This document shows positions 1 to 25,560 of a stretch of 64,000 bases of DNA, piece by piece. Within the stretch, counting starts at the first letter, position 1, and the number at the start of each line of letters is the position of its first letter. This stretch comes from a virus: IMG/VR virus record IMGVR_UViG_3300027509_000013, positions 1 to 64,000 of that record; one strand, given 5' to 3'. A model generated the notes under the pieces. It made no database searches. It was not told where the DNA came from and saw only the letters and a list, made by a program, of their open reading frames with translations. The position numbers and the translations under genes were made by a program.

Positions 1-855
1 GATTTAATCGGTAAAGTTTACGATAATAAAACAATCGAGAATGTAAATATTGACGGTCAAGGAAGAATTGTTTTACAATTTGAAGATGATAGTTCTAGTT
101 TATTCCGTCCAGAAGATAAAGGAAGTATTTCAACATTAACTGACATTGGTAATTCTGAGGCTAATAATGGTCCAGAAAAACCTGCTTCTAAGTCAGAAAA
201 AACAGCAGTCAAACCTGAGAAAGCTCCTGCGGAGCAGTCATTTGATCAATTGATAGATGGAGTTCCTAAATATAAGACTAAAGATTATAGTCCTCCAGAT
301 GTTAAGGATGAGGATCATTTGCAATATATCACTAATGGATACCAAGATTATGAAGCTAATCCATCAATGGCGATCAGGCATAATAATCCAGGAAATATAA
401 GTGATACTAATAGAGGAAATCCAGTAGCTATATCTGGTGTTGTTGACGACGGTATCGGTCGGAAGTCTCCAATATTTGCTACTCCAAGGGAAGGATTGGA
501 AGCAGTATTAGAGAAATGGACCAGAGCTAAAGATGGTAAAAGTGATGTGTACGAACTAGATAAGAACCTACATGAATGGATATCAAGTGGAAGTACTGGT
601 GCGGATGCTAAGATGACATTCCTTCAAAGTCTCAAAACGATTGCCCCTGATCAATTCAAGAAGCATATTGATGCTGAAATCAAAGGAAATGCAAAAAGAG
701 AGAAGTGGGATGAATTGGCAAAAAGCATTGATATGGAAGAATTCTTTAATAACTTTACATCAAAGCAATTTACAGAAGCTTGGGTGATGAAAGAAGACGC
801 TGATATGTATCGTTACTTGAAAAGTGATGGACATATTAAAGAGGTTTTGAGATAG
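1..855 (+). CDS. Virion-associated lysozyme-like protein, C-terminal part (5' end outside window)
   Basis: The frame is open from base 1 to the TAG at 853-855, so this is the C-terminal 284 residues of a gene that begins left of the window; a TTG at 250 is in the same frame but is not a credible start. The first ~80 residues form a charged P/A/K-rich linker. It then shows MAIRHNNPGNI, which matches the R-x-NNPGNI signature of phage structural lysins of the P5 / tail-associated muramidase type, followed by a helical domain. The role would be local peptidoglycan hydrolysis during DNA entry (family knowledge). It lies directly before the giant polyvalent gene, separated by a terminator, which fits a virion or injection locus. 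The catalytic residue cannot be assigned by eye. Confidence 0.6.
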   Translation, partial: DLIGKVYDNKTIENVNIDGQGRIVLQFEDDSSSLFRPEDKGSISTLTDIGNSEANNGPEKPASKSEKTAVKPEKAPAEQSFDQLIDGVPKYKTKDYSPPDVKDEDHLQYITNGYQDYEANPSMAIRHNNPGNISDTNRGNPVAISGVVDDGIGRKSPIFATPREGLEAVLEKWTRAKDGKSDVYELDKNLHEWISSGSTGADAKMTFLQSLKTIAPDQFKKHIDAEIKGNAKREKWDELAKSIDMEEFFNNFTSKQFTEAWVMKEDADMYRYLKSDGHIKEVLR

Positions 856-926: not shown

Positions 927-3900
927 ATGGAAGACAACACGAATTTAAAAGATCAGAATCAAACAGAAGAGAATCTGCAAGATGAATCTACGCAGACTGC
1001 AGTAACAGATCCACCTGTTACCGACCCACCTGTAGAGGAAACTCCGAAGCCAAAGATAGATCCTTTTGTTTCATTCATAAGGCAGCAAGCAGCGGCTACA
1101 GGTAAGGATATCTCTAATAAAGATGTATTAGCTCTGTATAAGCAGAATGTAAACAACAAAGCTGATTACATCGCGAAGTCTTATGCGGATGCAGGGAAAA
1201 CTCTTAGTATTACTCAGGCAAGAGAAATGGGTAGAAGGCTAGGTATCCCGCAGGAAGATTTTGATGGTATTGACAATGTGAGATATGATGATACTATTGA
1301 TTCTAAGATAGTTGATCACGTTAAAAAGAGAGGTGAAGAAAAAGGAGCATTGAATTTTAAGGGTGGAACAACCGAAGACTTAGAAAATGCTGTTGCTGCT
1401 CAGAGAAAAAAGATAACGGGAGCAAGTGGAGGATTTGGGTCGCTTTATGGAGGTCAAGTTAGAGTAGGAGAGAATGAAGAAGAAGAGATATCTGATAGAT
1501 TAGTAAAGGAATGGGAAGAAGACCAAGTAAAAGATCAGCAGTATAAAAAAGTACTTGAAGAAAAAAACCTACCAATTGTTAGGTATGATGATTTATTCAA
1601 GAAGTACTCTCAGGATGAAAATAATCCTACTACAGTAAGAAATAATGCTAATAGTCATATGAACAGGTATATTACTGCCATGTCTGATAGGACTAAAGTG
1701 TTGGCTGATAAAGTGACTGATAGGCAAGAAAAGGAATTGATGGGACTTTTAATTGCTAGGGAAGAAATTGATGGATTTGATGTAAATAAGCAAAGTCCTG
1801 AATTTCAGAGATGGTTTGATTCTTCTGGTAAGACTGCTAGTCAAATTTATGAATTTAAACAATTTAATAGTAGTCTAGTAGAAGATGATGATGGTAATAT
1901 AACTTCTTATCAAGATGACTTAAATGAATTTGTTAGGAAAAACCAAAAGGAAGTAGACAAACGAGGATTGGGTGCATATTTATTTGCTGATCAGAAAGGG
2001 CAATCTTCAATGGCGAGTTTAGTAGTCGGTGCAGCTATCAATTCATTTAATAGTACTTTTACTATAGCCGATCGAGATTTCAATGACGATCTTGAAGAAT
2101 TGCAAAACAAGAAGTATTCTAGAGATGAGGTTCAGGGATTAATGAAAAAGATTGGGGAAAGAAATTACAAAAGAGACCTGAGATCAGCATTGATGTCAGC
2201 TTCTCCTAGTAATTTCACTGGTCCAAGTGCATATGATTTTATACCGGTACCAGTAGCTAGTGGTGGTACTGTTAATGTGAGGTTTGACAGTAAGGATAAA
2301 GCTGTTGATATCTTTACAGATAATAAAAAGATAATTCCTAAAGAAGATTGGACGAAAGAACAGCAAGAAGCATTTAACAAAGCTCAAACAGACCCTAGTT
2401 TGCGAAAGCAAAGAGGTTACAATTTAAGACCTATAGGGAAAGGAGTTGTTGAAGCCTCAGCAGGAATGGTACCACTAATAGCTGCTACCTATATGACTGG
2501 TGGATTAGCAACAGCAGCGGGAGCAACAACACTTGGAGTGCAGGCTGTTTCAGGTAGTACAGCAGCACTTGTGACGTATGCTCAAACATATGGAGATAAT
2601 TACAAATCTCACTTAGCTCAAGGATTTGGAGATAAAGAAGCAAGGGCTTATGCAAGAAGAATAAGTGGAGTAGAAGCCTTTATTGGGGCAGCAGTTGGAC
2701 CAATAGAGAGAAAGTTTGGAACGATAAGAGCTAATCAAACTAGAAGAGCATTAGGTGAAGCAGCGCAAGAGGCTCATAGTGTTGCAGCTAGAGCAGCTGT
2801 AGGTCAGGCAACAGCTAACGTTGCTGAGTCAACATATCAAAAAGCATTTTGGAGCAGTGCTAAGAAAAAATTAGGACAATATGCAAAAGATGGAGCAGGA
2901 GAAGTTCTTGAAGAATTATTTGTGTTAAATGACACAGCTGCTCACAATGCATCTTTAGGTAGAACAGATTCTGATGTAACTGCTGACGATATATTTACAA
3001 CAGCAGCGGTATCTTTTCTTACTGGTGCAAGCTTTTCAACAATGTCAAACCCAGGAGTAAGTATAGAAGATCTTGATAATAGTATTCTTCATATTGGAAG
3101 ACATTACAATCAATTTGAAAAGAACAAGTCAATAACAGGAATCCAGTTAGGTGAAACTGAAGCTGAAAATACAGCTAAAGAAGAAATGTTAGTTAGGTCT
3201 AGAGAGGGATATGTAATTTCAGATAAGCATGCTAAAAGAACAGGAATTTTACTTAGTGGAGAAAACATGCAAGAGGTTAATGATTTAATCCTTGAAAGTG
3301 CTAAGACACCTGATGCTGATACTGACTATGATGCAGAGATAGGAGCAATTTACGACAGAGCACTCGAAGAGTCAGCAGATGCTGAGCCTGTAACAGATAC
3401 TGACGATGATGGTCCAGGTGGAGATGATGGCGGTAGTGACGATGACGATACAGGTGGTCCAGACGATCCAGATGCAGCTCCAACACCAGACACGTTGGTA
3501 GATGATCTATTTGACGACCCTGCGGCAGTAACAGTGGATAACCCAGATGATTTAGTGGAAGTAGGTGGCGAAGCCGACACAGACGTTGAAATCGACCCAG
3601 AAGCGGATGCAGAAGTAGAGCCGGTATCTACAAGACCTCAAACAATAGCTGACATTGAAACAGTATCAGACATACTAGCAGAAGAAGGTAGAGGGAGTAA
3701 TAGTTTTTCTTTCCAAGATGAGAATGGAAATACTAAAACATTTGCTAGAGATGAAGATGGAGATTTTATCAATCTTGAAAATGGAGAGACAGCAAGTGAT
3801 ACTGACTTAGAGAATCTGAGAGATTCAATGCTTGCCGATAATGATGTAGAGATAGATTATGATTTAGAAGGTAATGTGTCTTCAAATGAAGGTGCTTATG

Positions 3901-6900
3901 TGCGATATGGTAATAACAGTGGATACATAGTTGAGCATGATGGAAATCATTATGTAGAAACACTTGATGGAGATCTACAGTTAATAGAGTCAGGTTCGAG
4001 CGAAACTTCTGCATCAGAGCTTGGTATAACAGGTATTCAGGGAGCATCTACAAGGACAGCAGACATAGGTAGAGCAAAGAGTAAGGTTAAGAATACAGTA
4101 AATGGAGTAGTAGGAGTATTTGAGGGAGATGGAAGTAAGGGAACTGTAGAGATTGGTGGACAGAACTATGATTTTGTTAAAGGAAAGTATGATCCAACAA
4201 CTAAGTCAGCGGTTGTAACTGTAACTCGTAATGGTAAGAAAACAAATGTGAAAGGTGAAGATGCTTTAAGTATTCTTCAAGATCAAGCAGCACATAAATT
4301 AGGTAAATCACGTAAAAATATAACAGCAGATGACGTCAAGAGAACAGCGAGTGAAATCAATAAAGAGCCGGGGATTAGCGAGCCTAAACCCAGAGGTAAG
4401 GTTGGAACTCGGAAAGTACAGCAAAGCGGATCAGATAGAGATAATGCAGGCAATGATGGAACCGAATCAGGAGCCGAACCCGGAAGAGACGGAGATACTG
4501 GGGCAACCGACACAGACAACGAGCCTGGAGCAGACGGAGAAGGAACTGGCACAACAAATGCAGCCGACGTCAACAGCGGAGCCGCAGACGGTAGTGCCAA
4601 GCAGTCAGGAGATACCAGACCCGCAGGTGAAGGAAGCACAAGCGAGCCTACACGACCAAGCAGCAGCAGAAAGGGACATGGCTTCACAAAATCAGAACCT
4701 TACAGAGCCATCAACGGAAAGTCCTATTACTATGAAGGAGGAAAGTGGAGAGGCGCAACCTCTGGAAGAGCCCTCAGCGACGCCAAATCAGCCGAGTTAA
4801 CAGCAGAGATTGGTAAAAGGATAATCTCACAAGCTACTTTGCATCTTAATAGTCAAAATATCTTTGCAGGAAGTCAGATAATTACAGACTTTTTGAACAG
4901 TGAAATAACTGTAGGAGAAGATATTATTGAGCAATTCATTAAGGAGCAAAACCCTGAGTTGTATAAGATGCTTTTGGGATACCGTGATCATATTAGGGAG
5001 TCAGGAGTAAAGATAGTTGGATATGATAATACAGCTGACTTTCAGGCAGCTACTGGTCAAGCTAATCCTAATCCAGATATTACAGCAAATACGAATGTAA
5101 ATTCTGATACTTCAACAGATGTAAATATAATTAGTACTCCAAGTGCAGAGATTATTTCTGAGCTACAGAAACTAGGGACTGTAGAAGAGAAGTTAAACTG
5201 GTTAAAAGATAAAGGGTTATTAGAGCCAATGGTCGTTAATGGCCAAGAGTTTAATGGAGCTGAATGGGAGAGCAGGAAGATAGTAATGATGAAGATAGGA
5301 AATGTTAGCATTCCATTTTACATCAGTACAGGAAAGGGAGGAAAGAAGGATGTTGCGAAACATAAGTGGTATCCAGTATTTGGAATCGGGCAAGAAGGTT
5401 GGTTAAATAAAGGTTCTACTGCTGAAATAAACGAATATTACAAGAGTCCAGTATTTGCTAAATTTGCCAAGATATTAAATGAAGGAGTAGGCAATGCTGA
5501 TTTTAGAGGTGATAATGATACAGGTAGAATTAAGGATGGAATAGCTTTTATAGAAGATACTAATTTTGCTCCTGTTAATGATGCAATGAATATTGAGAGC
5601 ACTCCTGCTAAAAGTAATAAAGATGTTCAGGGCTTTTATGATCATGCATCGAATGTACTTAATGCTGTTACTGACGAATTAAAAGCAATTGAATTAAGTC
5701 AATCTCAAAAGGCACAGACAGCTAATAACATAGCTTCAAGAACAGAAGGAGACCGGGATGCAGGATTATCTTTAGGATTTACAGATGCTAATAATCCAAA
5801 TGCTGAGGGAGATGTTTTTGAATCTAAAGTAGAAGATAGTGACCCAAGTAATCCTGCCAATCAGTTAAGTTTCTTTGATGAGAATGGCGACCCGATAGTA
5901 TTTGCAGCTGAGAGCAAAGGAGAACCATATGTAGACCCAGACCTAGTACCTGATGAACAAAGAGTACAGACACAATGGAATGAGAGTAAGAACATACAAT
6001 TCACAGGAACAACTAAGGTTAAAGATGCTTCTGATGTGGCACACATCTTCAGACTGCTCGAAAACAAGGCAGTAGAGCAAGCCTATGTAGTTCACGTTGA
6101 TAGTGAAGGTAATTCTCATATTCAGCATATGTCTATGGGTGGAGTTGCAGGAACTGTAGTCGACCCTAAATTGATAGTGGCAGGAGTATCTAAATTCAAG
6201 TCAGAGAAAGTCTATTTAATTCATAATCATCCATCAGGTAATTTAGAGCCAAGTCAAGCAGATTTCAACATAACAGCTAAGGTTAGAAATGGTCTAAGGC
6301 CATTAGGTATTCCTGTGGAGCATGTCATAATGGACACCTATAAGCAGGAGTATACTGTTATCGATCAAAACAATGAAGCTAGTTTTGAAAAAAGGTCAAA
6401 GAAGGATTATAGTGATGTTCCGTTGCAGACCTTTACTATGGACGAGCAAAGTGTAGATCCGACAGTGCTTGGTCAGAAAATATCTGCATCAAACGATGTA
6501 GCAAAGTTCTTTCAAAACAATAGATTTACGGCAAGACCAAAAGGTGGTGTGTTGATATTAGATCGTAAAAACACTATTGTAGGTCATTTTGCTCATCCGG
6601 ATGGGATTAGTGACTTAAAGCCATTATTAGATCAAATGGCTGCTGTTAATGGGAGTGGTATCATTACTTATGGTAACACTAGAAGGTACCAGAGGATTAC
6701 AGCTCCGAATATGCAGAAGACATTCGATGATTTAGATTATAAGTATTTAGATGATGTTACTTTCAAGTCAGAAGGCTCTGATATTGAAGGATATCTTAGT
6801 GCAGCTGAGGAGGGACTGTCTCTTAATGAGCAGCACGAAAAGTATGGCACTGATCCGATATCTAATTCTGAGGTAAATGAACCAAGTGATAGTCCACAAC

Positions 6901-9900
6901 AGAAAGATGTAAGGGCACAGATTGATGAGAAGAGAAAAGAGTTAGAATCGGCTAAGAAAGCCTACTCTAAGAAAGCAAGAGAAATCCATGAGCATTTAAT
7001 AGCTGATCAGAAAGACTTGTTTGGGCAACGAGATTCAGTTTTGAAGGCGCAGACAGGTTTGTTTGAAGTTCAGAGAATTGATGCGGACCCACAAGATATA
7101 CTTGCTCCATTAAAGGCTAATATAGAGAGGATAAGGAAAGAGATTAATAGTCTTAGTCGGTCTTTAGAAGCTCCGCAGACTGGTTCATTGTTTGAGAGTA
7201 AGGTGCCAGAGGACAATAATTTAGATGTCCCTTTTTCAAGACCTCTTATAAATTCCCTATTGGCAAATCTTAGATCTAAAAATGAAGATGTAGCTGCAGA
7301 AATATTTGAAGCAATAAGAGATAAAAGAGCGTCTGACACAGGAGAATTTGCAATGGATGAGTATGTAGACTCTATTGAAGATCTTACGTTTAAAAATGTA
7401 GTTGACATATTAAGAGCAACGACCGAACAGGATATTTTTAACACTCGTGACGCTATTAATTATTTAAATAAAATAGGTGATCCTAACATAGGTAGAATAT
7501 TAAAAGAAACAGTGAAGTTATCCGGTGATTCTATCTTTGAAAGTAAGCCACAACCAGAAATAACACCGATTGAAGTATTAGATGATTCACACATCGATGC
7601 TTTCAATGAAACTGGCTTAGTGCCAAACAATATAATTTCTACAATTGCTAATAAGATAAAGAATAAGCAGCAGTTGTCTAATAATGAGATGGAGATTTAC
7701 AATGCGGCACCTTTATTGGTAGAAGCTGAGCTCTATGATCCATTAGGTCAATCAGAGTCTCCTAAGTCAGCTGTTTATAAAGATGGTAAGATTCACATTG
7801 ACTTTAGTAACTTCAGTAATTCTGATGTTTCTCAGGCAATGATAGATTCTTTCATGGATAAGAATCGAGGGAACATTGAAGAAGCATTGGAGTCTAGACT
7901 TAAAAAGAGTCCATTATTCAAAGATTACTTTGATGTAGCTACAGGAGAAAGAGTAGACACAACCGAAGCTGATTCCGAAGCAGACTTCTATAGCCCAGAT
8001 GCAGAAGATGGAGAGAATGGAGAAGTAGGCACTAATATCTCAGAGAGATATGATCAAGCTGAGAAGATATATGGAAATGAAGAAGCAGTAAAGCTAGTCA
8101 ATGGCCAGAGAGTAAAAGGACGTTTCGTTCTCGCTCCATTTGATTCGATAACCCCATCTCATAATCCAAATACATTTGAAAAGTCAGAAGGATTCCCAAC
8201 AGAGAATGGAGTTACTGTAAATGATAGAGATTACGAAAGTGATAAGAATGCTCAAAAGGCAGTAAAGGAATTTTCGAAGGATTATACTGATGCAGCTTTT
8301 ACTGGTGGTAATATTATTGTTAGTAAGGATGGGATAGTAATGTCTGGTAATAACAGAACGATGTCTGGACAGTTAGCTGATTCTGATGCAATGTCAGATT
8401 ACTACAAGATACTTCCTATCAAGCTTAAACAAGCAGGAATAGAGGTTCCAGATGGAGTTGATTTACAAGATGGTAAATATGGTCTTTGGATAGAGTGGGA
8501 TGCTCCTAATCCAGTTTATAGTGTAAATGAGTTTGCTAAATTCAATGAAGACCCAACTAAAGCAAAGTCAACAGTAGATACATTTAGAACTACAAAGAGT
8601 AAGCTTACTACTGATTCAGTAAATGGATTACTATCTGTTGTTCCTGATAATAGATTCCCTGAAACATATTATGCTAAAGGTGAAAAGGCTAAGCAGTTTG
8701 CTGATTGGGTAGTATCTAATGGTATTTACCCTAAATTAAGAGTATCTGAAATTTATGATGCGAAGAACAAGGAATTGACTTTTAGAGGTTCAATGCTTGC
8801 TCAGTTAGTCTCAGTTGGTTTACTGATCGATGATTCAACGACTCAGTTGTTTGATAAGAAGAGAATGTCACCTTATTTAGACCGATTGAGTCAAATGGGT
8901 AAAGTATTCAATTCATTACTGGGAACTGACTTAGACATGTCAGACAACATAAATGGAGCACTTAAATTATTAAATGATTACGGTCAGAATAATGGAGGTG
9001 AAAAATCATTCCTAAGATGGGCTAGAGGTTTAGGTATCGGAACTGATGGTGGAGGTATTCAGAATAATCCTATGGATGTAGCAATAGCGTACATGCTCTC
9101 AGGAGAGTCTAAGTCTTCTAATATGAGGAAAGACTTTGGAAAGAGAATAAGTGTAGCTAAGGACGCTGACAGTCAAGCGGGAATTGGATTAGAAGGAACT
9201 GATAGTAGATCTAAGTTTGACTTGGTTCAAAAGTCTTTAGAAGTATTGTCAAGAGATAATAGTTTACAGCCATCAGTAAGACAGGAATTAGCTTTTCTTG
9301 CATCTCAGGATTTCTCTGAGGATTCTAAATTTAGAGCTACAGAAAAGGGAGGAATATTCGAAAGCAAAGTCAATTTAACTCCGATTCAAAGGATTTATCA
9401 GGATGTGTTGGCCGGAGGTCAGCCTAAGATAATTGAAGCATTAGAGACAGGAGTTGAGAAAGCAATAAAGAGTATTAGTCCTGGTGTTTACCAAAGTATG
9501 ATCGATGCAGGTCTTACTAACGCTGATATCCTAAAAGCGGTAGCAAGTGGAGATCAGTTGGTAGTTAATAAGAAGTCTAAGATATTGGATAAGATTAGTC
9601 AAATGTCTGCGGATGGATTGATGAAGGTAAGTGCAGCTGATTTATTCCAAGCAAAACAAGCTGATTTCACTGATAATGGAATTACATTAAGTGATGTCAA
9701 GGGAGCGATCGGAGAAGTTGAATCAGGTAATGAAATCCCTGCAAGTTTAATGACAGAAGCAGGAATAGACGTATTGCCATTTGATGATAATGTAAAGTCA
9801 GTATCTTCTTATTTGGAGAATAGAGGATTTCCAAAACCAATAGCCAAGTTAGCAGAAGAGATTTATAGAACATATCCATCTGGTACTGGTGATATTAAGA

Positions 9901-12900
9901 CAGCAGCAAAGTCAGCCATGGCCATTGTAAACCCGATGAGGTCTGCGATGAATCTTTCTACTTATTATCCATTTACTGATTTACAGAAAGGATATATCAA
10001 GCAAGAGTTTGAGATAGAATCAGATAATGATTTTAATGATGTAGTAAGAGCATTGTTTGACGATTACATGGATGGTAAGAGTCATCCAGTAATGGATATG
10101 GTAGGAACCTGGGTCAAGGCAGCTTATCAGAATGCTATTGACATTGGTGTACCTATGAAAGGGAGAAATGCTGATATCATTCAAGCATTGAATCTGAAAG
10201 AAGGAAATGTATTTACTACTGGTGATAGTATTGTTTTGGATAATAAAGGTTACTTTATTGAAGGAGTAGATAAAGTCAATGGTCAAAGATTTTATAACTT
10301 AATTGATGTAGCATCTAAGAGAAGTTTAAGGTTATCGGAAGCTGAGGTAGAAGAAAGGGGAGTAAAAGAGAAATACAAATTAGATCCTAAGAGGCAGAAG
10401 GTGATTGACTTGGTTACTGATGTGCTTAAAGACATAGTTCCTAATCTATCTATTACCTACTTCACTTCTGATCAATACAGAGCTCACAGAGGTTATAATG
10501 CAAATGCCTTTATGAATACGGCAAAGGGATGGTTAGCTCTAAATATGGAGTTAGCTACTACTCAATCTATAAGACACGAGGCAGGACATTTTGTTATTCA
10601 GGACCACTTTAAGACGAATCCAGAAGCTTTAATTGACATGCATAAGGTTGTCGTTGGGGTTTTGGAGAATGGAACAGCTAGAGAGAAAGCATTAGCTAGA
10701 CAAGTTCAGGCGCATGTTGATCAGTATGGAGCTACACAGGCCAAGTTGGCAGGAACATCAATTGAAAGAGTAAAAGCAGAAGAGTACCTTGTAGAATTAG
10801 CAGCACTTTTAGCTGATAATAAAGAGCAGATATCTAAAAAGAACTGGGCAGAAATAATTGATAACATAGTTGACTATGTAAAGAAGTTATTCAAAACAGA
10901 TTTCGATTTTGATATAGCTGATGCTGATGAAGCGATCGATTTCATTAATGGAGTGGCAACAAGACTTGGAGGATCGCCGCCAGTAAATGTAGCGACGCCA
11001 GTATCACAGAATCCTGTGCAAGGATTGTTTGAGTCAAAGTTTGATGAGTTGTTTACCAAAGGTGAAAAAGTTACAGTTTACTATCCGGCAGTAGACAGAG
11101 CAGGACTCGAGACGACTTCTGGAAGAGTTTACATGGAAGCTGAGGTTGGAGGTATATTTGATGACAGTAAAACAGGACAGAGGTTAGTTAAAATAGGTAA
11201 GAACTATTATCCAAGAACTGCATTTTCTAGGGATGCTCAGGGAAGAGTAGTGATTAATACTTATGATGCTGAAATAACAGGGCCTTCTACATTAAATGCT
11301 GATGATACAGCTAAGGTAGATGAGATTATTAAAATCTACTTGAATCACAATCCAGATATGACTGGAAAAGAGATTTATGATGCTCAGAGAAGTAAGGCAT
11401 TCAAGAGACTTGGAGTTAAGAAAGGTTATGTCCAAGAGAGATTTGATTTGATTACGAAAGATGAAGCAGGAAGGAAAGCCGAGTTAGGATTCCAGAAAAG
11501 TGAGCAAGACAGATTGAAGAATAAGAACATCAATAATACTTTGAAGAGAGCTATTCAGCTTTTATCAGCTGACTTTAGAGCATTAGCTGAAGCAGAAGGA
11601 GTGATACTCGAGAATGACAATGCTGAGACTGATTATGTAAACCAAAAGATTGCAGACTTATTAGATGAACATGCTAATACTCCTGAGAGTATTGAAGCAT
11701 TTTATAGAGAGTTTAGAAAACATCAGCCTACTATTCTTGGAAGCAATGAGGTGTTTGATGGTAAAGATGGAGTTAAAGATCAAATGGACCCTAGAATTTT
11801 TGTTGGTACAATGTATCGATTGATTGCAGCTTACGGATCATTTAAAGATACTCTTATGACAGGTCTCTTAGATGATATTCATGTAGCTATGGTTGCTGAT
11901 TTAACGAAACTAAGTAGTAACTCAGGATTAATGTTATTGGGTCATACAGAGAAGTACTCTGGATTACCTAGTAATGTGAAAATGGATGAAATACTAAGAG
12001 ATATTGATTACGCTATAACTAAGGAGCTCAATAATAAAAAAATAGGAAATAGTAAGAGTGCTCAGAAAGAGATAGATGCTTTAACTAATAAGCTGAAAGT
12101 AACAGATAAGGATATCAGTGATGTAGTAGATGCACTTGATAAGACTGGTTTCTTTAAAGACTTATCAGATGCAGTTACTCCAGATGATTTAGGATTGTCT
12201 GATTTGATTGCAAAAGCAGATAGAGAGATCAATGATGATGGTACAAATAATTCTGATTTAGACAATGATGCTGAGAACGAATTTATATTTGAATCTAAGG
12301 CAGTTGATCCGAGTAAGAAGCTGCGTAGAATTGTAAATATCGCATTTAATGATGCATATTTCAATAAGAGAAAGAAAGCAGGGAATAGTGACTTTTTAAG
12401 AGGTAAAGACCCAATGGTTCGAATAAAAAAAGCACTAGAGACTTATTTTATACAAAAGATGCAAGGGGGATTGTTTGGTAGTGCAAATAATAACAACAAA
12501 GCAGATATTAAAGAGTTTTATCGTCAATACCCGAGTGTAGCCAAGCAGATAGAAAAGCAGTATTTAAAAATGCAGAAGCAGATTGCAACTGACATTATCA
12601 ATACTAAAGGAAATGCTGATCTAAAATCAATTTTACAGAGAAGTTATAAGAGTGTCAATAAGACATCTAAAGTTGTGCCGATCGATAAGTTGTTGGCTGA
12701 CAGTAAGAATACTGGAAGAGTTGTTCGTGATGCCTTAGATAGATTGAGATTAAAAATGTCTTACGCTAAAGACCCAGTTGTTAGAGCAAGAATATTAGAT
12801 GCGATCCAGAAATTAGAGCAGGTAAAGGCAAACTTAGTTTATGATGAATCTAAGATTGATATAAACAATCCTAAATTCTCTAGGTCTATAAACAAATCAC

Positions 12901-15900
12901 TTAGGTCTCTTACAAAACAAGACTTAGCTGAATTGGGAATAAAGGTAGGTCAAGACATTGATCCGCAGAAGTATCCTCAGATTATCATGAGAGCAATCAT
13001 GAATCAATCTAAGAGGGATAGTAATTTATCTATCACTTCACTAACTCAAAAGTTAGTTGGTTCATTCGACATGGACCCAAGACTGGCAGTTGAGTTGGCC
13101 AAGGCTATCAATGATGCTTATAAAGCAAAAGTAATCAAGAGGAAGAGAGCACAGCTCGACAGACATCTCTCTAAGCTGAAGAAAGGAGACAAGAAGAACA
13201 AGAGTTTACATGATAGGTTAGTCGCATACATTGAGGAAGGATATTTGAATGAAGAAGCAACAAGAAAAGCAGTAGCTGCGAAGTTTGGATTTAAAGGGAT
13301 TGATAATAAGACTAGAGAGAGATTAGGAACATTATTAGACCTAATGGAGAGTCCTGATCCAAGAGTGGTTTCTAGAGCAAACAGAGAGTTTAGAGCACTA
13401 ATCAACAACTTGAAGTCAAACAGAGTAAACAGAATACTCAAAGCATTGACGAAGTATAGATATATTTCTCTATTGAGTGGATTCGGTACAGCGTTAGTGA
13501 GTTTGATCTCTTCTGGTAATTTAGTTATAGGAAGGAGAATTAGTGACAATATTAAAATAGCAAAAAGAGGTAAGGAAGCAATAAAAGCTTTTAGGCGTGC
13601 AAAATCTAAAGATGCACAACTTTACGGTAGTATATTGAATAGATCTGGTGCCGCTGTACAACTTGCGAGACAGGCATTAAAGGAAGGTAGTTTGATTATT
13701 AATCATGAGGATAATCCTACAGATGCTATTTCTAATATCGATAAGAGAGTAAATGAAATACTCCTAAGAGGTATGGCTAGAATAGGTACAGCTGAGTCAA
13801 AAGCAAGAGCAGAGCAATTACTAGCTGAATCGGGATCGACTCGAGGTGAAGGTGCAGTAGAGTTTGGAAGAGATGTATTTTCTACGGCAATGTTAGTTAT
13901 TCCAACAATGATGACTAGAACACTTCAGGCAATGGATGTATTGTTCAATACAAGAGCAATTGAAAGAAGTGCCTTTTTACTTGCTTGGGATAAGACTTTA
14001 GGTGTTAATCCTGATACTGGTTCAGAAGCATTTTTCCATGAGTTATCTACGAACATGGGAACAGGAGTTGTCTTAGATGAAAATAACTTTGAGACAACAT
14101 TTGATGAGCAATTAAATTCTAAGGTTGCAGAGATTGAAGCAGCGAATGGAGGAATAAAGATGCGTCCAGGAGAGAAGTCAATATTAGCTAAGGAATTAGT
14201 ACTTCAGAACAGAAAGAGGATTGAATTACTTACAAGAGATCAAAGAGTAGAACTTGCTACAGATGAAGATGGTGTATTCAATAAAGATTTGTTTGATGTA
14301 CTCGAGAGGAATAAGAAGACAGTCAATAATATCTCATCACAAAGAGCCTTAGATGCTTCTTTATTGAATACAGATATTCGAGGATTAATGACTGGAATGT
14401 TAGGTTATGGATTAACAATGCCAAGTAGAAGCCTGAATCAAGCAGCAAATGAAGATTCTACTAAATCTATAAGTAGAGCATTGTTGCAAATACCTATGTC
14501 AATGATATTCCCAATTGTAAAGGTAGTTGTGAATAACTATTACAATTCATATGCTCACAATCCAATGAGTATTGTTCCAAGATTAGCATTGAAAGCGATA
14601 CTTGGAGTTGATGATGTTAGAAGAAGTACTAGAACAGGTGACTTGACCATAAATGGTATTGCGTTTAAAGATCTCAAAGCATTAGCCGATACTGAAGGTG
14701 GAGATGTACTTAGATTACTTAGAAACAAAGACTCTCAGGTTAGAAAGGCAGTAGAGATAATGCAGGAAGATAAAGTAAGTAAAGAAGATTACTTTATAGG
14801 TCTAGGGATGAGTACAATTGGAGGTGTGTTAGCTATTTTAGCTGCATTCGAATGGGAAGAAGATGAAGAGGGAAATACTAAGATTAAGAAGCGAGAGTCA
14901 TTCTGGAATAAACTACAGATAACAGCCGGAGGTACTGGTGATTATTGGGAGAATAAAGACATCTTTGGCAAAGAAAGAAAAGACAACACGATCTCTGTTG
15001 GTGGATTCCATACAAGGTGGACAGAAATGCCGTCTAGTGCAACCTGGGGGATGTTAGGAGTGATTGGAGATAAGTTGGACCTAAACCACCTTGAAGACGA
15101 TGGAACGCCTTATGGTACGTCAGGATTAATAAAAGATGCTCTGTATGGAACATATGCAGAGTTCCTAGGAGAAGGATTTGGTATTAGTACCAATTTGATT
15201 GGCCAAGTAGTAAACAGTGGATTTAAAATCAGTGAGTACGAAGGTAATATTAAAGATGCAAGATTGGAGTACTCTAAAGTCCTTCAAGACGGTAAAGCAA
15301 CTGACAGAGAAAAAAGGACAGCTGAAGTAAAGCTTAATCGAGCAGTAGAAACTAATGAGAAGTTGATAGATAGAGAGAGATCTAAGCAAGGTGTCTTTAT
15401 TGGTAGAACAGTTTCATCTCAGTTTTTCCCTCCAAATGTTTATAGGCAGTCATACAAGATGATCAAAGGTGGCCAGGAAGCACCTAAAAAGAATTTAAGA
15501 ACTGGTAGTAATTTGAATGATGTACTTGGAGAAGGTAGAACAGCATCGATATTTAATTCGATTGTAAATAACATACCATTGGTAGATGCTACTTTAGAGA
15601 ATAGAGTAGATATGTATGGTAATCCAATTCCAGAAAATTTTGATCTAATTCTTGCACCTGATAGATGGGAAGACCATATAGGTAGTTACATTAAGAATGT
15701 AGAAAGAGATCCAGATATGGACTTTATGATTAATGAATTGCCAATTGATTACAATGACATAAAGATGTCTAAAAGTGCTGCTCGTAGGACTAAAAACTTT
15801 GAGTATTATCCAAGGGAAGCACAAAAAGAATTAGATGATATCTGGCATGAGCAATTTGGAATTGAAGTCAAAAAACAAATTCCACAACTTAGACAAATGA

Positions 15901-16010
15901 GTGAGGATCAGCAACTTGCATGGGTCAAGTCAATTGCTAAGAGAGTCAAGGTTACAGAAGAATATAGGGCTGCGAAAGAAAGATTGAAAAAAGAAATTCC
16001 AGAAAAGTAA
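927..16010 (+). CDS. Giant polyvalent virion protein (5,027 aa; JAB/RadC-like, ParB-like and zincin domains)
   Basis: The start ATG at 927 follows a terminator and an A/T-rich leader. Visible order: acidic P-rich N terminus; hydrophobic stretch ~505-558; acidic D/G/P-rich linker ~811-904; second low-complexity D/G/E/T linker ~1158-1258; RadC-like JAB domain with H1766-N-H1768-P-S-G and D1779; coiled-coil segment ~1990-2060; DdrB-like ParB domain from ~2388 with GNNRTMSG near 2475; zinc metallopeptidase motif H3217-E-A-G-H3221; hydrophobic segments ~4176-4201 and ~4622-4643 in a long helical C-terminal part. This is the architecture of phage polyvalent proteins, which are thought to be packaged and injected with the DNA to counter host defences (established for the class). 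F-E-S-K occurs six times, at 1631, 2089, 2204, 2811, 3368 and 3788, and the copies bracket the domains. No RNA polymerase catalytic motif was convincing. Exact boundaries are by eye. Confidence 0.8.
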   Translation: MEDNTNLKDQNQTEENLQDESTQTAVTDPPVTDPPVEETPKPKIDPFVSFIRQQAAATGKDISNKDVLALYKQNVNNKADYIAKSYADAGKTLSITQAREMGRRLGIPQEDFDGIDNVRYDDTIDSKIVDHVKKRGEEKGALNFKGGTTEDLENAVAAQRKKITGASGGFGSLYGGQVRVGENEEEEISDRLVKEWEEDQVKDQQYKKVLEEKNLPIVRYDDLFKKYSQDENNPTTVRNNANSHMNRYITAMSDRTKVLADKVTDRQEKELMGLLIAREEIDGFDVNKQSPEFQRWFDSSGKTASQIYEFKQFNSSLVEDDDGNITSYQDDLNEFVRKNQKEVDKRGLGAYLFADQKGQSSMASLVVGAAINSFNSTFTIADRDFNDDLEELQNKKYSRDEVQGLMKKIGERNYKRDLRSALMSASPSNFTGPSAYDFIPVPVASGGTVNVRFDSKDKAVDIFTDNKKIIPKEDWTKEQQEAFNKAQTDPSLRKQRGYNLRPIGKGVVEASAGMVPLIAATYMTGGLATAAGATTLGVQAVSGSTAALVTYAQTYGDNYKSHLAQGFGDKEARAYARRISGVEAFIGAAVGPIERKFGTIRANQTRRALGEAAQEAHSVAARAAVGQATANVAESTYQKAFWSSAKKKLGQYAKDGAGEVLEELFVLNDTAAHNASLGRTDSDVTADDIFTTAAVSFLTGASFSTMSNPGVSIEDLDNSILHIGRHYNQFEKNKSITGIQLGETEAENTAKEEMLVRSREGYVISDKHAKRTGILLSGENMQEVNDLILESAKTPDADTDYDAEIGAIYDRALEESADAEPVTDTDDDGPGGDDGGSDDDDTGGPDDPDAAPTPDTLVDDLFDDPAAVTVDNPDDLVEVGGEADTDVEIDPEADAEVEPVSTRPQTIADIETVSDILAEEGRGSNSFSFQDENGNTKTFARDEDGDFINLENGETASDTDLENLRDSMLADNDVEIDYDLEGNVSSNEGAYVRYGNNSGYIVEHDGNHYVETLDGDLQLIESGSSETSASELGITGIQGASTRTADIGRAKSKVKNTVNGVVGVFEGDGSKGTVEIGGQNYDFVKGKYDPTTKSAVVTVTRNGKKTNVKGEDALSILQDQAAHKLGKSRKNITADDVKRTASEINKEPGISEPKPRGKVGTRKVQQSGSDRDNAGNDGTESGAEPGRDGDTGATDTDNEPGADGEGTGTTNAADVNSGAADGSAKQSGDTRPAGEGSTSEPTRPSSSRKGHGFTKSEPYRAINGKSYYYEGGKWRGATSGRALSDAKSAELTAEIGKRIISQATLHLNSQNIFAGSQIITDFLNSEITVGEDIIEQFIKEQNPELYKMLLGYRDHIRESGVKIVGYDNTADFQAATGQANPNPDITANTNVNSDTSTDVNIISTPSAEIISELQKLGTVEEKLNWLKDKGLLEPMVVNGQEFNGAEWESRKIVMMKIGNVSIPFYISTGKGGKKDVAKHKWYPVFGIGQEGWLNKGSTAEINEYYKSPVFAKFAKILNEGVGNADFRGDNDTGRIKDGIAFIEDTNFAPVNDAMNIESTPAKSNKDVQGFYDHASNVLNAVTDELKAIELSQSQKAQTANNIASRTEGDRDAGLSLGFTDANNPNAEGDVFESKVEDSDPSNPANQLSFFDENGDPIVFAAESKGEPYVDPDLVPDEQRVQTQWNESKNIQFTGTTKVKDASDVAHIFRLLENKAVEQAYVVHVDSEGNSHIQHMSMGGVAGTVVDPKLIVAGVSKFKSEKVYLIHNHPSGNLEPSQADFNITAKVRNGLRPLGIPVEHVIMDTYKQEYTVIDQNNEASFEKRSKKDYSDVPLQTFTMDEQSVDPTVLGQKISASNDVAKFFQNNRFTARPKGGVLILDRKNTIVGHFAHPDGISDLKPLLDQMAAVNGSGIITYGNTRRYQRITAPNMQKTFDDLDYKYLDDVTFKSEGSDIEGYLSAAEEGLSLNEQHEKYGTDPISNSEVNEPSDSPQQKDVRAQIDEKRKELESAKKAYSKKAREIHEHLIADQKDLFGQRDSVLKAQTGLFEVQRIDADPQDILAPLKANIERIRKEINSLSRSLEAPQTGSLFESKVPEDNNLDVPFSRPLINSLLANLRSKNEDVAAEIFEAIRDKRASDTGEFAMDEYVDSIEDLTFKNVVDILRATTEQDIFNTRDAINYLNKIGDPNIGRILKETVKLSGDSIFESKPQPEITPIEVLDDSHIDAFNETGLVPNNIISTIANKIKNKQQLSNNEMEIYNAAPLLVEAELYDPLGQSESPKSAVYKDGKIHIDFSNFSNSDVSQAMIDSFMDKNRGNIEEALESRLKKSPLFKDYFDVATGERVDTTEADSEADFYSPDAEDGENGEVGTNISERYDQAEKIYGNEEAVKLVNGQRVKGRFVLAPFDSITPSHNPNTFEKSEGFPTENGVTVNDRDYESDKNAQKAVKEFSKDYTDAAFTGGNIIVSKDGIVMSGNNRTMSGQLADSDAMSDYYKILPIKLKQAGIEVPDGVDLQDGKYGLWIEWDAPNPVYSVNEFAKFNEDPTKAKSTVDTFRTTKSKLTTDSVNGLLSVVPDNRFPETYYAKGEKAKQFADWVVSNGIYPKLRVSEIYDAKNKELTFRGSMLAQLVSVGLLIDDSTTQLFDKKRMSPYLDRLSQMGKVFNSLLGTDLDMSDNINGALKLLNDYGQNNGGEKSFLRWARGLGIGTDGGGIQNNPMDVAIAYMLSGESKSSNMRKDFGKRISVAKDADSQAGIGLEGTDSRSKFDLVQKSLEVLSRDNSLQPSVRQELAFLASQDFSEDSKFRATEKGGIFESKVNLTPIQRIYQDVLAGGQPKIIEALETGVEKAIKSISPGVYQSMIDAGLTNADILKAVASGDQLVVNKKSKILDKISQMSADGLMKVSAADLFQAKQADFTDNGITLSDVKGAIGEVESGNEIPASLMTEAGIDVLPFDDNVKSVSSYLENRGFPKPIAKLAEEIYRTYPSGTGDIKTAAKSAMAIVNPMRSAMNLSTYYPFTDLQKGYIKQEFEIESDNDFNDVVRALFDDYMDGKSHPVMDMVGTWVKAAYQNAIDIGVPMKGRNADIIQALNLKEGNVFTTGDSIVLDNKGYFIEGVDKVNGQRFYNLIDVASKRSLRLSEAEVEERGVKEKYKLDPKRQKVIDLVTDVLKDIVPNLSITYFTSDQYRAHRGYNANAFMNTAKGWLALNMELATTQSIRHEAGHFVIQDHFKTNPEALIDMHKVVVGVLENGTAREKALARQVQAHVDQYGATQAKLAGTSIERVKAEEYLVELAALLADNKEQISKKNWAEIIDNIVDYVKKLFKTDFDFDIADADEAIDFINGVATRLGGSPPVNVATPVSQNPVQGLFESKFDELFTKGEKVTVYYPAVDRAGLETTSGRVYMEAEVGGIFDDSKTGQRLVKIGKNYYPRTAFSRDAQGRVVINTYDAEITGPSTLNADDTAKVDEIIKIYLNHNPDMTGKEIYDAQRSKAFKRLGVKKGYVQERFDLITKDEAGRKAELGFQKSEQDRLKNKNINNTLKRAIQLLSADFRALAEAEGVILENDNAETDYVNQKIADLLDEHANTPESIEAFYREFRKHQPTILGSNEVFDGKDGVKDQMDPRIFVGTMYRLIAAYGSFKDTLMTGLLDDIHVAMVADLTKLSSNSGLMLLGHTEKYSGLPSNVKMDEILRDIDYAITKELNNKKIGNSKSAQKEIDALTNKLKVTDKDISDVVDALDKTGFFKDLSDAVTPDDLGLSDLIAKADREINDDGTNNSDLDNDAENEFIFESKAVDPSKKLRRIVNIAFNDAYFNKRKKAGNSDFLRGKDPMVRIKKALETYFIQKMQGGLFGSANNNNKADIKEFYRQYPSVAKQIEKQYLKMQKQIATDIINTKGNADLKSILQRSYKSVNKTSKVVPIDKLLADSKNTGRVVRDALDRLRLKMSYAKDPVVRARILDAIQKLEQVKANLVYDESKIDINNPKFSRSINKSLRSLTKQDLAELGIKVGQDIDPQKYPQIIMRAIMNQSKRDSNLSITSLTQKLVGSFDMDPRLAVELAKAINDAYKAKVIKRKRAQLDRHLSKLKKGDKKNKSLHDRLVAYIEEGYLNEEATRKAVAAKFGFKGIDNKTRERLGTLLDLMESPDPRVVSRANREFRALINNLKSNRVNRILKALTKYRYISLLSGFGTALVSLISSGNLVIGRRISDNIKIAKRGKEAIKAFRRAKSKDAQLYGSILNRSGAAVQLARQALKEGSLIINHEDNPTDAISNIDKRVNEILLRGMARIGTAESKARAEQLLAESGSTRGEGAVEFGRDVFSTAMLVIPTMMTRTLQAMDVLFNTRAIERSAFLLAWDKTLGVNPDTGSEAFFHELSTNMGTGVVLDENNFETTFDEQLNSKVAEIEAANGGIKMRPGEKSILAKELVLQNRKRIELLTRDQRVELATDEDGVFNKDLFDVLERNKKTVNNISSQRALDASLLNTDIRGLMTGMLGYGLTMPSRSLNQAANEDSTKSISRALLQIPMSMIFPIVKVVVNNYYNSYAHNPMSIVPRLALKAILGVDDVRRSTRTGDLTINGIAFKDLKALADTEGGDVLRLLRNKDSQVRKAVEIMQEDKVSKEDYFIGLGMSTIGGVLAILAAFEWEEDEEGNTKIKKRESFWNKLQITAGGTGDYWENKDIFGKERKDNTISVGGFHTRWTEMPSSATWGMLGVIGDKLDLNHLEDDGTPYGTSGLIKDALYGTYAEFLGEGFGISTNLIGQVVNSGFKISEYEGNIKDARLEYSKVLQDGKATDREKRTAEVKLNRAVETNEKLIDRERSKQGVFIGRTVSSQFFPPNVYRQSYKMIKGGQEAPKKNLRTGSNLNDVLGEGRTASIFNSIVNNIPLVDATLENRVDMYGNPIPENFDLILAPDRWEDHIGSYIKNVERDPDMDFMINELPIDYNDIKMSKSAARRTKNFEYYPREAQKELDDIWHEQFGIEVKKQIPQLRQMSEDQQLAWVKSIAKRVKVTEEYRAAKERLKKEIPEK

Positions 16011-22475: not shown

Positions 22476-23978
22476 ATGTTGAGACCAGACTTATTTAGGA
22501 ATAATGTAGTTGAAAAGTTAATCCCAAGGGATTACCAGGAAGTGTCTGTTCGTAGTATAATTGACTATATAAAGTCTGCTACTACTTTTGATAAGAAAAG
22601 AGGCGTATATGTAGGTCCGGTAGCGTGTGGAAAAAGTTTCATAATAGCATTAGCGGCATTAGAGTTGGGAGAGCCAATATTGGTATTGCAGCCGAGTAAG
22701 GAATTGCTTGGTCAGAATTACGAGAAGTATACTGATGCAGGAGGTGTAGCGACTATATTCAGTGCTAGTATGAAAATGAAAGTATTGAGCTCTAATACCT
22801 ATGCAACTCTAGGGTCAATTAAAAATCAAGCCGCTAAACTTAAAAAATTAGGAGTAAGATATGTATTCATAGATGAATGTCATAAAGGTTATAGTCCTGA
22901 AGAGAAAGGAGTAGCTAGAATATTTTTGGAAGCATTAGATCCAACTTGTGTCGTTGGATTCACTGCGACACCAGTGAGATTAGAGTATGAAAAGAAAAAT
23001 GGTTTGCAGAAAAGCGGTATGCAGATTAAATTCATTACAAGTACTAATCCTACTTTATTTAATGATGTCATTCATATTGTTCAGATATCTGAAATCAAAC
23101 AATACTGGCCAGATATCTCTCTTTATGAATTTGACTTTGACGAATCAGCCCTAGTAACGACTAAAGATGGTACAGACTTCACAGATAAGAGTGCGTCGGA
23201 AGCAGTTGAGAAGAATAAAGTAAATCGAAATATTTGCATGCATTTGAAGTCAATTTCTAAAGAGAGGAAATCAACTTTAGTTTTTGTAGATAGTGTAGCT
23301 TCTGCTCATAAGTTTAGTAAATGGTGTAACGAATCATTAGGACTTAACACAGCAGTTGTTTATGGTGGAATGAATCTTGATCTAAGGAGTGATATTGTTG
23401 AAGAATTTAAGAACTTAGAAATTGATGTTATTTTCAATTTCGGTACATTAACTACTGGTTTCGATCACCCTGAATTGGATTGTGTTGTATTAGGTCGGCC
23501 AATGAATTCTTATAGTGACTTTTATCAAATGATAGGTAGAGGATTAAGAATTCATATAGAAAAAGAGAATTGCATGGTACTTGATTTCTGTAATAACTTT
23601 AGAAGAATGGGAGATGTAAGAAAAATGGAGATACTACATGTGCCTTACTGGGGATGGGCTATATTTGTTGGAGGAAAGCTATTGACTGATATTCCAATTA
23701 AAGGACCAAAACTTACTTTAGAACAAACTATAGTTTTAGGAAAGACTAGAGAATATAATTTGAAGAAACCTCGAATTGGATTTGGGCAGTATACAGAATG
23801 TGGATATGAAAAACTTGTAGAAGATCCGGGTTACTTGAGGTACTTACTGCCAAAAATAGAAGCTAAAATTGCAGAGGAAGGAAAGAAGATACCAAAGAAA
23901 TACATAAGATTTGTAGAAATGGGAAAATTTATTTTAAATATAGAAAAAGAATTAAAAAATGTTCGAAAAGCAGCCTAA
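22476..23978 (+). CDS. SF2 DNA/RNA helicase (DECH box)
   Basis: Motif I is GPVACGKS, motif II is IDECHKG, motif III region is FTATP, and the second RecA domain has STLVFVD, TLTTGFDHP and QMIGRGLR (motif VI). This is a complete SF2 helicase of the UvsW/SSL2-like type (500 aa). It would remodel forks or recombination intermediates. The ATG follows the polymerase stop with no gap, and its 3' end overlaps the chaperonin start by 20 bp. Confidence 0.85.
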   Translation: MLRPDLFRNNVVEKLIPRDYQEVSVRSIIDYIKSATTFDKKRGVYVGPVACGKSFIIALAALELGEPILVLQPSKELLGQNYEKYTDAGGVATIFSASMKMKVLSSNTYATLGSIKNQAAKLKKLGVRYVFIDECHKGYSPEEKGVARIFLEALDPTCVVGFTATPVRLEYEKKNGLQKSGMQIKFITSTNPTLFNDVIHIVQISEIKQYWPDISLYEFDFDESALVTTKDGTDFTDKSASEAVEKNKVNRNICMHLKSISKERKSTLVFVDSVASAHKFSKWCNESLGLNTAVVYGGMNLDLRSDIVEEFKNLEIDVIFNFGTLTTGFDHPELDCVVLGRPMNSYSDFYQMIGRGLRIHIEKENCMVLDFCNNFRRMGDVRKMEILHVPYWGWAIFVGGKLLTDIPIKGPKLTLEQTIVLGKTREYNLKKPRIGFGQYTECGYEKLVEDPGYLRYLLPKIEAKIAEEGKKIPKKYIRFVEMGKFILNIEKELKNVRKAA

Positions 23979-25560
23979 CAAACAGCAAGAGAAAGTACCA
24001 CCACAACCTAGAGGTGGTGCTAAAATTCCACCTACAGAGACTGAGAGTATAATTAGTCAGGCTATAGAAGTGGTTGAAAAAGTATTTGACACACTTGGTC
24101 CAAATGGAAAGAGAGTAGTTTATCAGAGTGCCGAAGGGATCGGCGCGAGTAAGGATGGTGTGACCATTTTAAAACATCTCTGGCATTACGATGAGAATGT
24201 AGACAATGCAATTGAATTGATCCGTCAAGGAAGTGAAAAGACTCTCCAAGAGGAAGGTGATGGAACAACAACAACAGCAATGTTAGCTTGTATCCTTTAT
24301 GGAATAATCACAGACAAAGCATTCGCGGAAATTCCACATCACCAGAAAGTGAAAATTGTAGAGGATTCTGAAAAAGCGATTCTGGAAGAACTTGAAGTAA
24401 TGATGCTTCCATGTGATACTGAAGAAGCATTAATCAAGATTGCTACCATCTCAGCAAATAATGATGCTGAAATAGGACAGCACATAGGATCTCTAGTCTC
24501 TAAGTACAGAGAGAATTCATTTATGATGATCAATAAGGGACGAAATCCAAAGACCATTGTAGAAGAAATGAAGGGAGTCTATTTAGATTGTTCTATTCAC
24601 AGTGATTACTTTTTAGATGATGGGCCTGCAATTAATAGGCCTCAGTCAGTATTATTGATGCTGAATGAAGCTGTTGGGTCAAGTAAAGGAATCATTGAAG
24701 ATTGTGCCGAGTATTGTATAGATAGAGGGATTAAGAGTATGATACTAATGTGTGAGTCAGTAGAGCCGACAATCTTAGAAGTATTTAAGGAATATGCTCA
24801 AACTGGATTTGACATAGTTCCAATCGGGCTACCTGATCATGGTGAGTTAAGACACCAAAAAATGGAGGATCTAGCTAGTGTAACTGGTGGAACCTACTTT
24901 CGAAGTGGAAAAGGAAAAAGCACTGATCCTGCGGATTGCTTAGGTGAAATAGCATATGCTAAGATATTGAAGTACGAAGTAGTATTGTCATTACTCGATT
25001 CAGCAGTTCCTAAAGTAAAATCAAGGACAAAGTATCTCAATGAGAAACTTGCAGAAATAGAAAAGTCAGATATTGTAAATAGAGATTTTGCAATAGATAA
25101 CATGAAGGAAAGAATCTCTTTAATCAATTCTAGTACTTGTACAATCATCGTAGGAGGACGAACTCCTGCGGAAGTAAGCGAGAAGTACGATCGGTATGAT
25201 GATGCCAAGAGAGCGACTATTAGTGCGCTGCAAAACGGTTTAGTGGTAACTTCATCTCAGGCATTGCATCAAGTGTCAGATGAATTAATCCTAAGAAAAG
25301 GGAATTCTGATTTGGAAGATGCTATTTATAATGCTCTAATAAAGCCATTTGAGTATGTCACAAAGGATTTATATGTAGAGTTTAGACCATTGAAAGGAGA
25401 AGCTTTGAATATTATTACAGATACATTAGGAGAACCACTAGAGGTAGGTGCAATCGATCCGTATGCTGTTGTGAGAAGTTGTGTTAAAAATGGATTTAGT
25501 GTAGCAAAAATGTTGATGAGTATTTCATCATTTGTGAAATTAAAGCCACATAGGAGGTAA
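23959..25560 (+). CDS. GroEL-like group I chaperonin (phage encoded)
   Basis: The equatorial domain is recognisable: DTLGPNGKRVV, SKDGVTI and EEGDGTTTTAMLA near residue 100 match the ATP-binding signatures of Hsp60/GroEL (TLGPKG, KDGV, GDGTTT). Near the C terminus, YDDAKRATISALQNGL keeps the Asp that corresponds to the ATP-hydrolysis residue D398 of GroEL, and GAIDPYAVVRS matches the GVIDPxKVxR segment. The usual GGG segment after it is replaced by VTSSQAL. The length (533 aa) is normal, with a proline-rich N-terminal extension of ~25 residues. No GroES partner is seen here. It ends at a strong terminator. Confidence 0.85.
   Translation: MFEKQPNKQQEKVPPQPRGGAKIPPTETESIISQAIEVVEKVFDTLGPNGKRVVYQSAEGIGASKDGVTILKHLWHYDENVDNAIELIRQGSEKTLQEEGDGTTTTAMLACILYGIITDKAFAEIPHHQKVKIVEDSEKAILEELEVMMLPCDTEEALIKIATISANNDAEIGQHIGSLVSKYRENSFMMINKGRNPKTIVEEMKGVYLDCSIHSDYFLDDGPAINRPQSVLLMLNEAVGSSKGIIEDCAEYCIDRGIKSMILMCESVEPTILEVFKEYAQTGFDIVPIGLPDHGELRHQKMEDLASVTGGTYFRSGKGKSTDPADCLGEIAYAKILKYEVVLSLLDSAVPKVKSRTKYLNEKLAEIEKSDIVNRDFAIDNMKERISLINSSTCTIIVGGRTPAEVSEKYDRYDDAKRATISALQNGLVVTSSQALHQVSDELILRKGNSDLEDAIYNALIKPFEYVTKDLYVEFRPLKGEALNIITDTLGEPLEVGAIDPYAVVRSCVKNGFSVAKMLMSISSFVKLKPHRR

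Follow-up and report, generated by a model that had tools for sequence, protein, structure and literature searches.

The stretch of DNA analysed here (the window) is the opening 64 kb of the virus record IMGVR_UViG_3300027509_000013, which is 131,999 bp long. An ORF scan located in it, at positions 927..16010 of the plus strand, the gene of a 5,027-aa protein, hereafter the giant, which has a colinear ortholog in a second phage genome (L096 in G006). Upstream, window positions 1-855 hold an open-ended frame of 284 aa, with which the last ORF of the record (genome 130164-131999, 612 aa, also open) is in frame. Because the ORF at the record's end continues into the first ORF of the window, the data suggest that the record is a circular, complete genome and that the joined ends encode a protein of about 896 aa upstream of the giant; an 885-aa counterpart is present in G006. 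Provided that the genome is circular, the giant gene is the last of a structural block, preceded by terminase, portal, scaffold-like, MCP and further genes. The G006 phage has the same block (TerL at 37%, portal, MCP and others). Compared with the TerL of Cellulophaga phage phi14:2, a member of the Crassvirales, that of our phage was 26% identical over 96%, and gene order was similar; the MCP was not detected by tblastn. We take the giant gene to belong to a ~132-kb phage that appears to be related to the Crassvirales.

Several other loci of this genome deserve mention. A GroEL-like chaperonin is encoded at window 23959-25560 (PHROG 5725, E 2e-77), and phi14:2 has one too. The 1,814-aa ORF at window 37801-43245 had no significant Pfam domain and showed the top conservation with G006 (1,110 bits). 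Just upstream of the terminase region lies a transposase gene (genome 88204-89361, L003:4204-5358; PHROG 506, E 2e-110), which is probably an inserted mobile element. Finally, a 35-kb contig (L006, IMGVR_UViG_3300005647_000014) encodes a TerL 100% identical to that of the phage and contains no match to the giant gene.

The giant combines several unrelated domains, all features given below being on the plus strand. A RadC/JAB domain at 6024..6338 matched Pfam PF04002 (E 7e-19) and was 62-64% identical to its counterparts in L015-L019. It is followed at 8100..8450 by a DdrB-like ParB domain, whose Pfam match (PF18763, E 2e-5) was below the cut-off and which was identified through homologues and fold: there were 69 related viral loci, and the ParB model matched DdrB-like proteins in a viral fold library (best E 1e-24), with nothing significant in a PDB fold search. 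Further downstream, 9909..10967 is a candidate zincin-like region with HEAGH at aa 3217 (10575-10589) and a conserved downstream glutamate. In the ortholog, HEAVH stands in place of HEAGH and the downstream E is kept; the region had no Pfam or PDB profile match. The C-terminal region (13269..15965) is the best conserved part of the giant, with 31% identity to the ortholog. Charge changes along the chain, from an acidic N-terminal part of 1,630 aa (-99) to a basic last 1,240 aa (+39) with hydrophobic segments.

With RadC, DdrB-like ParB and a HEAGH zincin-like region in one chain, the giant qualifies by architecture as a polyvalent protein as Iyer et al. 2017 (PMC5512222) use the term. Judging by its position after the structural block and the synteny with G006, it probably travels in the virion and is injected together with the DNA. 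As an expected virion cargo whose gene lies close to the structural genes of a phage related to the Crassvirales, it resembles the crassvirus cargo proteins gp45-gp50 of phi-crAss001 (PMC10172136); it differs from these in that tblastn against the phage collection matched its RadC part alone. Scanning for homologues with the whole protein or with single-sequence patterns gave nothing useful, and detection succeeded with RadC and ParB alignments. The sole trace of an RNA polymerase was a DEDGD at aa 942, which we did not take as catalytic, and PADLOC returned no match.

Dispersed along the giant, the tetrapeptide FESK occurs six times, at residues 1631 (5817..5828), 2089 (7191..7202), 2204 (7536..7547), 2811 (9357..9368), 3368 (11028..11039) and 3788 (12288..12299), exactly as listed in the initial annotation, and nowhere else in the protein. 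Also as described there, the preceding residue is always V, I or L (V, L, I, I, L and I in copy order) and the one before that usually G, D or S (D, S, S, G, G and F). The copies are encoded, in order, by TTTGAATCTAAA, TTTGAGAGTAAG, TTTGAAAGTAAG, TTCGAAAGCAAA, TTTGAGTCAAAG and TTTGAATCTAAG. Similarity among their 60-nt flanks was 0.27-0.28, versus 0.29 +/- 0.06 for random in-phase pairs from the same ORF, and the 20-aa flanks were likewise alike at random level. With neither kind of flank alike beyond chance, it is the protein sequence of the motif that is kept, as had been claimed, and we reject an origin of the copies by DNA duplication or gene conversion.

Composition predicts 0.07 copies of FESK where six were observed (nominal p 1.9e-10), and about 0.016 copies of [ILV]FESK. 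When 57 giant phage proteins were scanned for degenerate five-residue patterns, with shuffled giants as control, [ILV]FESK was the top dispersed repeat. Many patterns were viewed before this one was chosen, as a reading by chance or compositional bias would have it, but the nominal p of 2e-14 compares with about 1e-8 for the best pattern in the shuffled giants, and correction for ~1 million patterns per protein still leaves about 1e-8. Based on the shuffles we reject that reading, the probability of which we consider negligible. The motif is moreover all-or-none, every F-E-x-K in the giant being FESK, and the rest of the 132-kb genome contains just one FESK, in a dubious 62-aa ORF.

None of the six copies falls inside a recognised domain. 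Copy 1 (GDVFESKV) stands just before the RadC module, copy 2 (GSLFESKV) after RadC and a coiled stretch, copy 3 (DSIFESKP) before the ParB module, copy 4 (GGIFESKV) after it, copy 5 (QGLFESKF) after the zincin-like module and copy 6 (EFIFESKA) before the basic C-terminal part. Pfam, homologues, fold and HEAGH thus agree with the earlier placement of the copies between RadC-like, ParB-like and zincin parts. Similarity of other RadC giants to ours extends from aa 1620-1680 to 2042-2046, with a longer coil match in L015; in the RadC proteins of L017-L019 it begins at aa 1620-1659, beside copy 1. Where the corresponding coiled stretch of L015 ends (compare copy 2), the sequence is NSLFKDEK. ParB-containing giants have a stretch of about aa 2287-2785 in common, and the copies at 1631, 2089, 2204 and 2811 fall either on the borders of these RadC and ParB homologous blocks or beyond them. 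The order of the blocks is shuffled among the giants of other phages. Ahead of copy 1, aa 1395-1594 (window 5109-5708) match a 1,784-aa ORF of L016 (E 3.5e-57), a separate gene adjoining the RadC giant of that locus and another shuffled module.

An AlphaFold2 model of aa 2190-2840, based on 37 sequences (mean pLDDT 72), placed copies 3 and 4 in coils of pLDDT<50, predicted to be disordered, that flank the well-predicted ParB domain; such residues make up 19% of the model. Around all six copies, a composition-based disorder measure was weakly raised (p 0.05). A single-sequence model of aa 2792-3791 had a mean pLDDT of 40 and was too poor for use.

The single full-length colinear ortholog, a 4,290-aa protein from IMGVR_UViG_3300045684_000050, was 23% identical to the giant over aa 2127-5013 and lacks the RadC module. 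Alignments of the C-terminal part run against viral and bacterial genome contigs recovered this ortholog again and nothing else. FESK is absent from it. Near the places expected from interpolation between aligned blocks, we found IFYSL at 2164 (expected about 2184, ~20 residues off; NDIFYSL, near copy 4), PFFAR at 2753 (expected 2752, 1 residue off; QPFFARF, aligned with copy 5) and PFFSK at 3138 (expected about 3128, ~10 residues off; NPFFSKL, near copy 6). The pattern [FY][SA][KR] was over-represented near the expected sites (3/6 matches, p 8e-4), a partly post hoc result, as the pattern was prompted by unrelated giants and then loosened. Stricter, pre-set relaxations were not significant at these sites (p 0.10), and the motif returned by a de novo search of the ortholog was weak and not significant. 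Together, this is suggestive of three motif positions that the ortholog may keep with changed letters. Conservation in homologues, on which the initial annotation had made its proposal depend, was therefore found in part: the letters are changed, and three positions appear to be retained, the latter partly post hoc.

Repeated motifs were also present in other giants. In the unrelated giant L021, phi-[RK]-[FY]-S-[RK] occurs six times (nominal p 9e-11), with two copies directly ahead of ADP-ribosyltransferase-type domains (ART-PolyVal and DUF3990 matches), and the unrelated giant L023 has five copies (nominal p 1e-7). The giants L028/L037 repeat phi-R-F-R-Y/V. A lineage-specific repeated linker motif is thus not confined to the phage studied here; most of the 57 giants had no repeated motif at the sensitivity of the scan. 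The L115 giant contains [FYW]-T-x-T-P five times (aa 2312, 2566, 2875, 3239 and 3275; nominal p 3e-9), possibly a linker motif of its own.

Modules are shuffled between phages, as the RadC module missing from the ortholog illustrates, and a motif might accompany such joints without any partner, as a structural cap, a linker element or a relic of module joining. Relatedness of the flanks is lacking, however, at both DNA and protein level, and if nothing recognised the motif, it would be difficult to account for four invariant residues within linkers predicted to be disordered; we consider this reading unlikely. The motif is strict, sits at module junctions as the initial annotation had proposed, and seems to have changed in all its copies together from one lineage to another, which points to one shared recogniser. 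A dedicated recognising factor is thus the best reading, and we infer that FESK very probably marks the module junctions as a recognition tag specific to the lineage.

The factor originally proposed was a T4-type prohead protease that cleaves after E, giving pieces of about 1632, 458, 115, 607, 557, 420 and 1238 aa, sizes that are arithmetically correct. The enzymes of T4, phiKZ and SPN3US do cut after E (PMC5694885), at sites made up of an aliphatic or small residue, any residue and then E, and all six copies match by their letters, with an aliphatic residue, F and E before S. Unlike those sites, FESK is strict in F, S and K beyond what aliphatic-x-E enzymes need and is limited to one protein: the portal, scaffold-like protein and MCP contained neither FESK nor [LIV]FE. 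Pfam and PHROGs detected no prohead protease among the structural proteins scanned, a search that very diverged enzymes could escape. In addition, the glutamate is missing from the related motifs of the ortholog, and the crassvirus virion paper (PMC10172136) mentions neither protease nor cleavage. Cleavage by a T4-type enzyme is thus poorly supported, and we regard it as quite improbable.

That FESK serves as a cut site for some protease is, in our estimate, only slightly short of an even chance. Our first choice of enzyme, held tentatively, is the embedded zincin. We prefer cutting in view of the zincin-like region within the chain and of the earlier proposal by Iyer et al. 2017, who cite the processed DdrB of P1, that zincins process proteins of this type (PMC5512222). 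The embedded HExxH was, furthermore, the sole recognisable protease signature common to our phage and G006. A stand-alone metzincin of the M43 pappalysin type (genome 123128-124036, L004:19128 onward; HEAAHCFGLYH, Pfam E 7e-7) is encoded in the structural block; it was not detected in G006 and is therefore not a shared factor, and we rejected it as the processing enzyme.

Under zincin cutting, phi-F-E-S-K would be the version, specific to this phage lineage, of a short tag set into the linkers that join one module to the next in a polyvalent protein delivered by injection. One dedicated factor, the zincin in the same polypeptide, would read all six copies, and the chain would be cut, in the capsid or after ejection, into N-terminal, RadC, small helical, ParB, zincin, one further and basic C-terminal pieces. 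The invariant aliphatic residue ahead of F may represent the P1' residue of a thermolysin-like cut. Thermolysin-like enzymes usually prefer an aliphatic residue at P1'.

Several observations speak against zincin cutting. Zincin signatures are present also in giants that repeat no motif, which makes the association non-specific, and the vRNAP of N4, itself bearing a metallopeptidase domain, enters the virion in unprocessed form (PMC5512222). The injected antirestriction proteins DdrB and DarA of P1 are both reported to be processed, and DdrB has a zincin-type HExxH as the giant does; unlike the giant, DdrB, DarA and DarB contain neither FESK nor phi-[RK]-[FY]-S-[RK]. A single ortholog was found, with a weak motif, and the zincin-like region itself was recognised by HExxH, the downstream glutamate and that ortholog alone. 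A docking motif would give an identical outcome in every test made.

In the case of docking, each FESK linker would bind a putative phage partner (a portal or cargo protein, a chaperone or a scaffold), for packaging, holding or module-by-module threading of the giant through the tail. A strict linker motif that changes between lineages suits binding as well as cutting. The portal and the tail barrel are docking sites of the crassvirus cargo protein gp45, and during ejection cargo is in a partly unfolded state (PMC10172136). P1 DarB is targeted to the capsid by a sequence of <30 residues (PMC9024508), but this is single and N-terminal, in contrast to six mid-protein copies of FESK, and the partner of the giant is only putative. 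Overall, we consider docking nearly as likely as zincin cutting.

The initial annotation overstated its case in calling the processing of a polyvalent protein new, since zincin-driven processing was proposed in 2017 (PMC5512222). The giant resembles the proteins described there in its chain of unrelated domains (RadC, DdrB-like ParB, zincin-like), in modules shuffled between phages and in its suggested processing. It differs in the repeated motif that marks its junctions, which we did not find described in that paper (the word 'linker' is absent from it), and in the literature searched we found no repeated linker motif in polyvalent proteins. Thus, the repeated linker code seems to be undescribed, whereas the processing idea itself is not new.

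The question of how phages pass giant multi-enzyme proteins down a narrow tail, and of whether these are cleaved into pieces, dates back to 2017 or earlier. A strict and countable linker motif provides exact positions for mass spectrometry, it marks module borders in giant proteins that are otherwise unannotated, and it leads to the prediction that each phage lineage has a code of its own. In a bolder and rather doubtful extension of zincin cutting, polyvalent proteins would be self-processing polyproteins, in which an embedded zincin cuts a lineage-specific linker code to release several effectors, with code and protease changing together. The codes proposed for such a system are FESK here, phi-F-[FY]-[SA]-[KRL] in the relative and phi-[RK]-[FY]-S-[RK] elsewhere.
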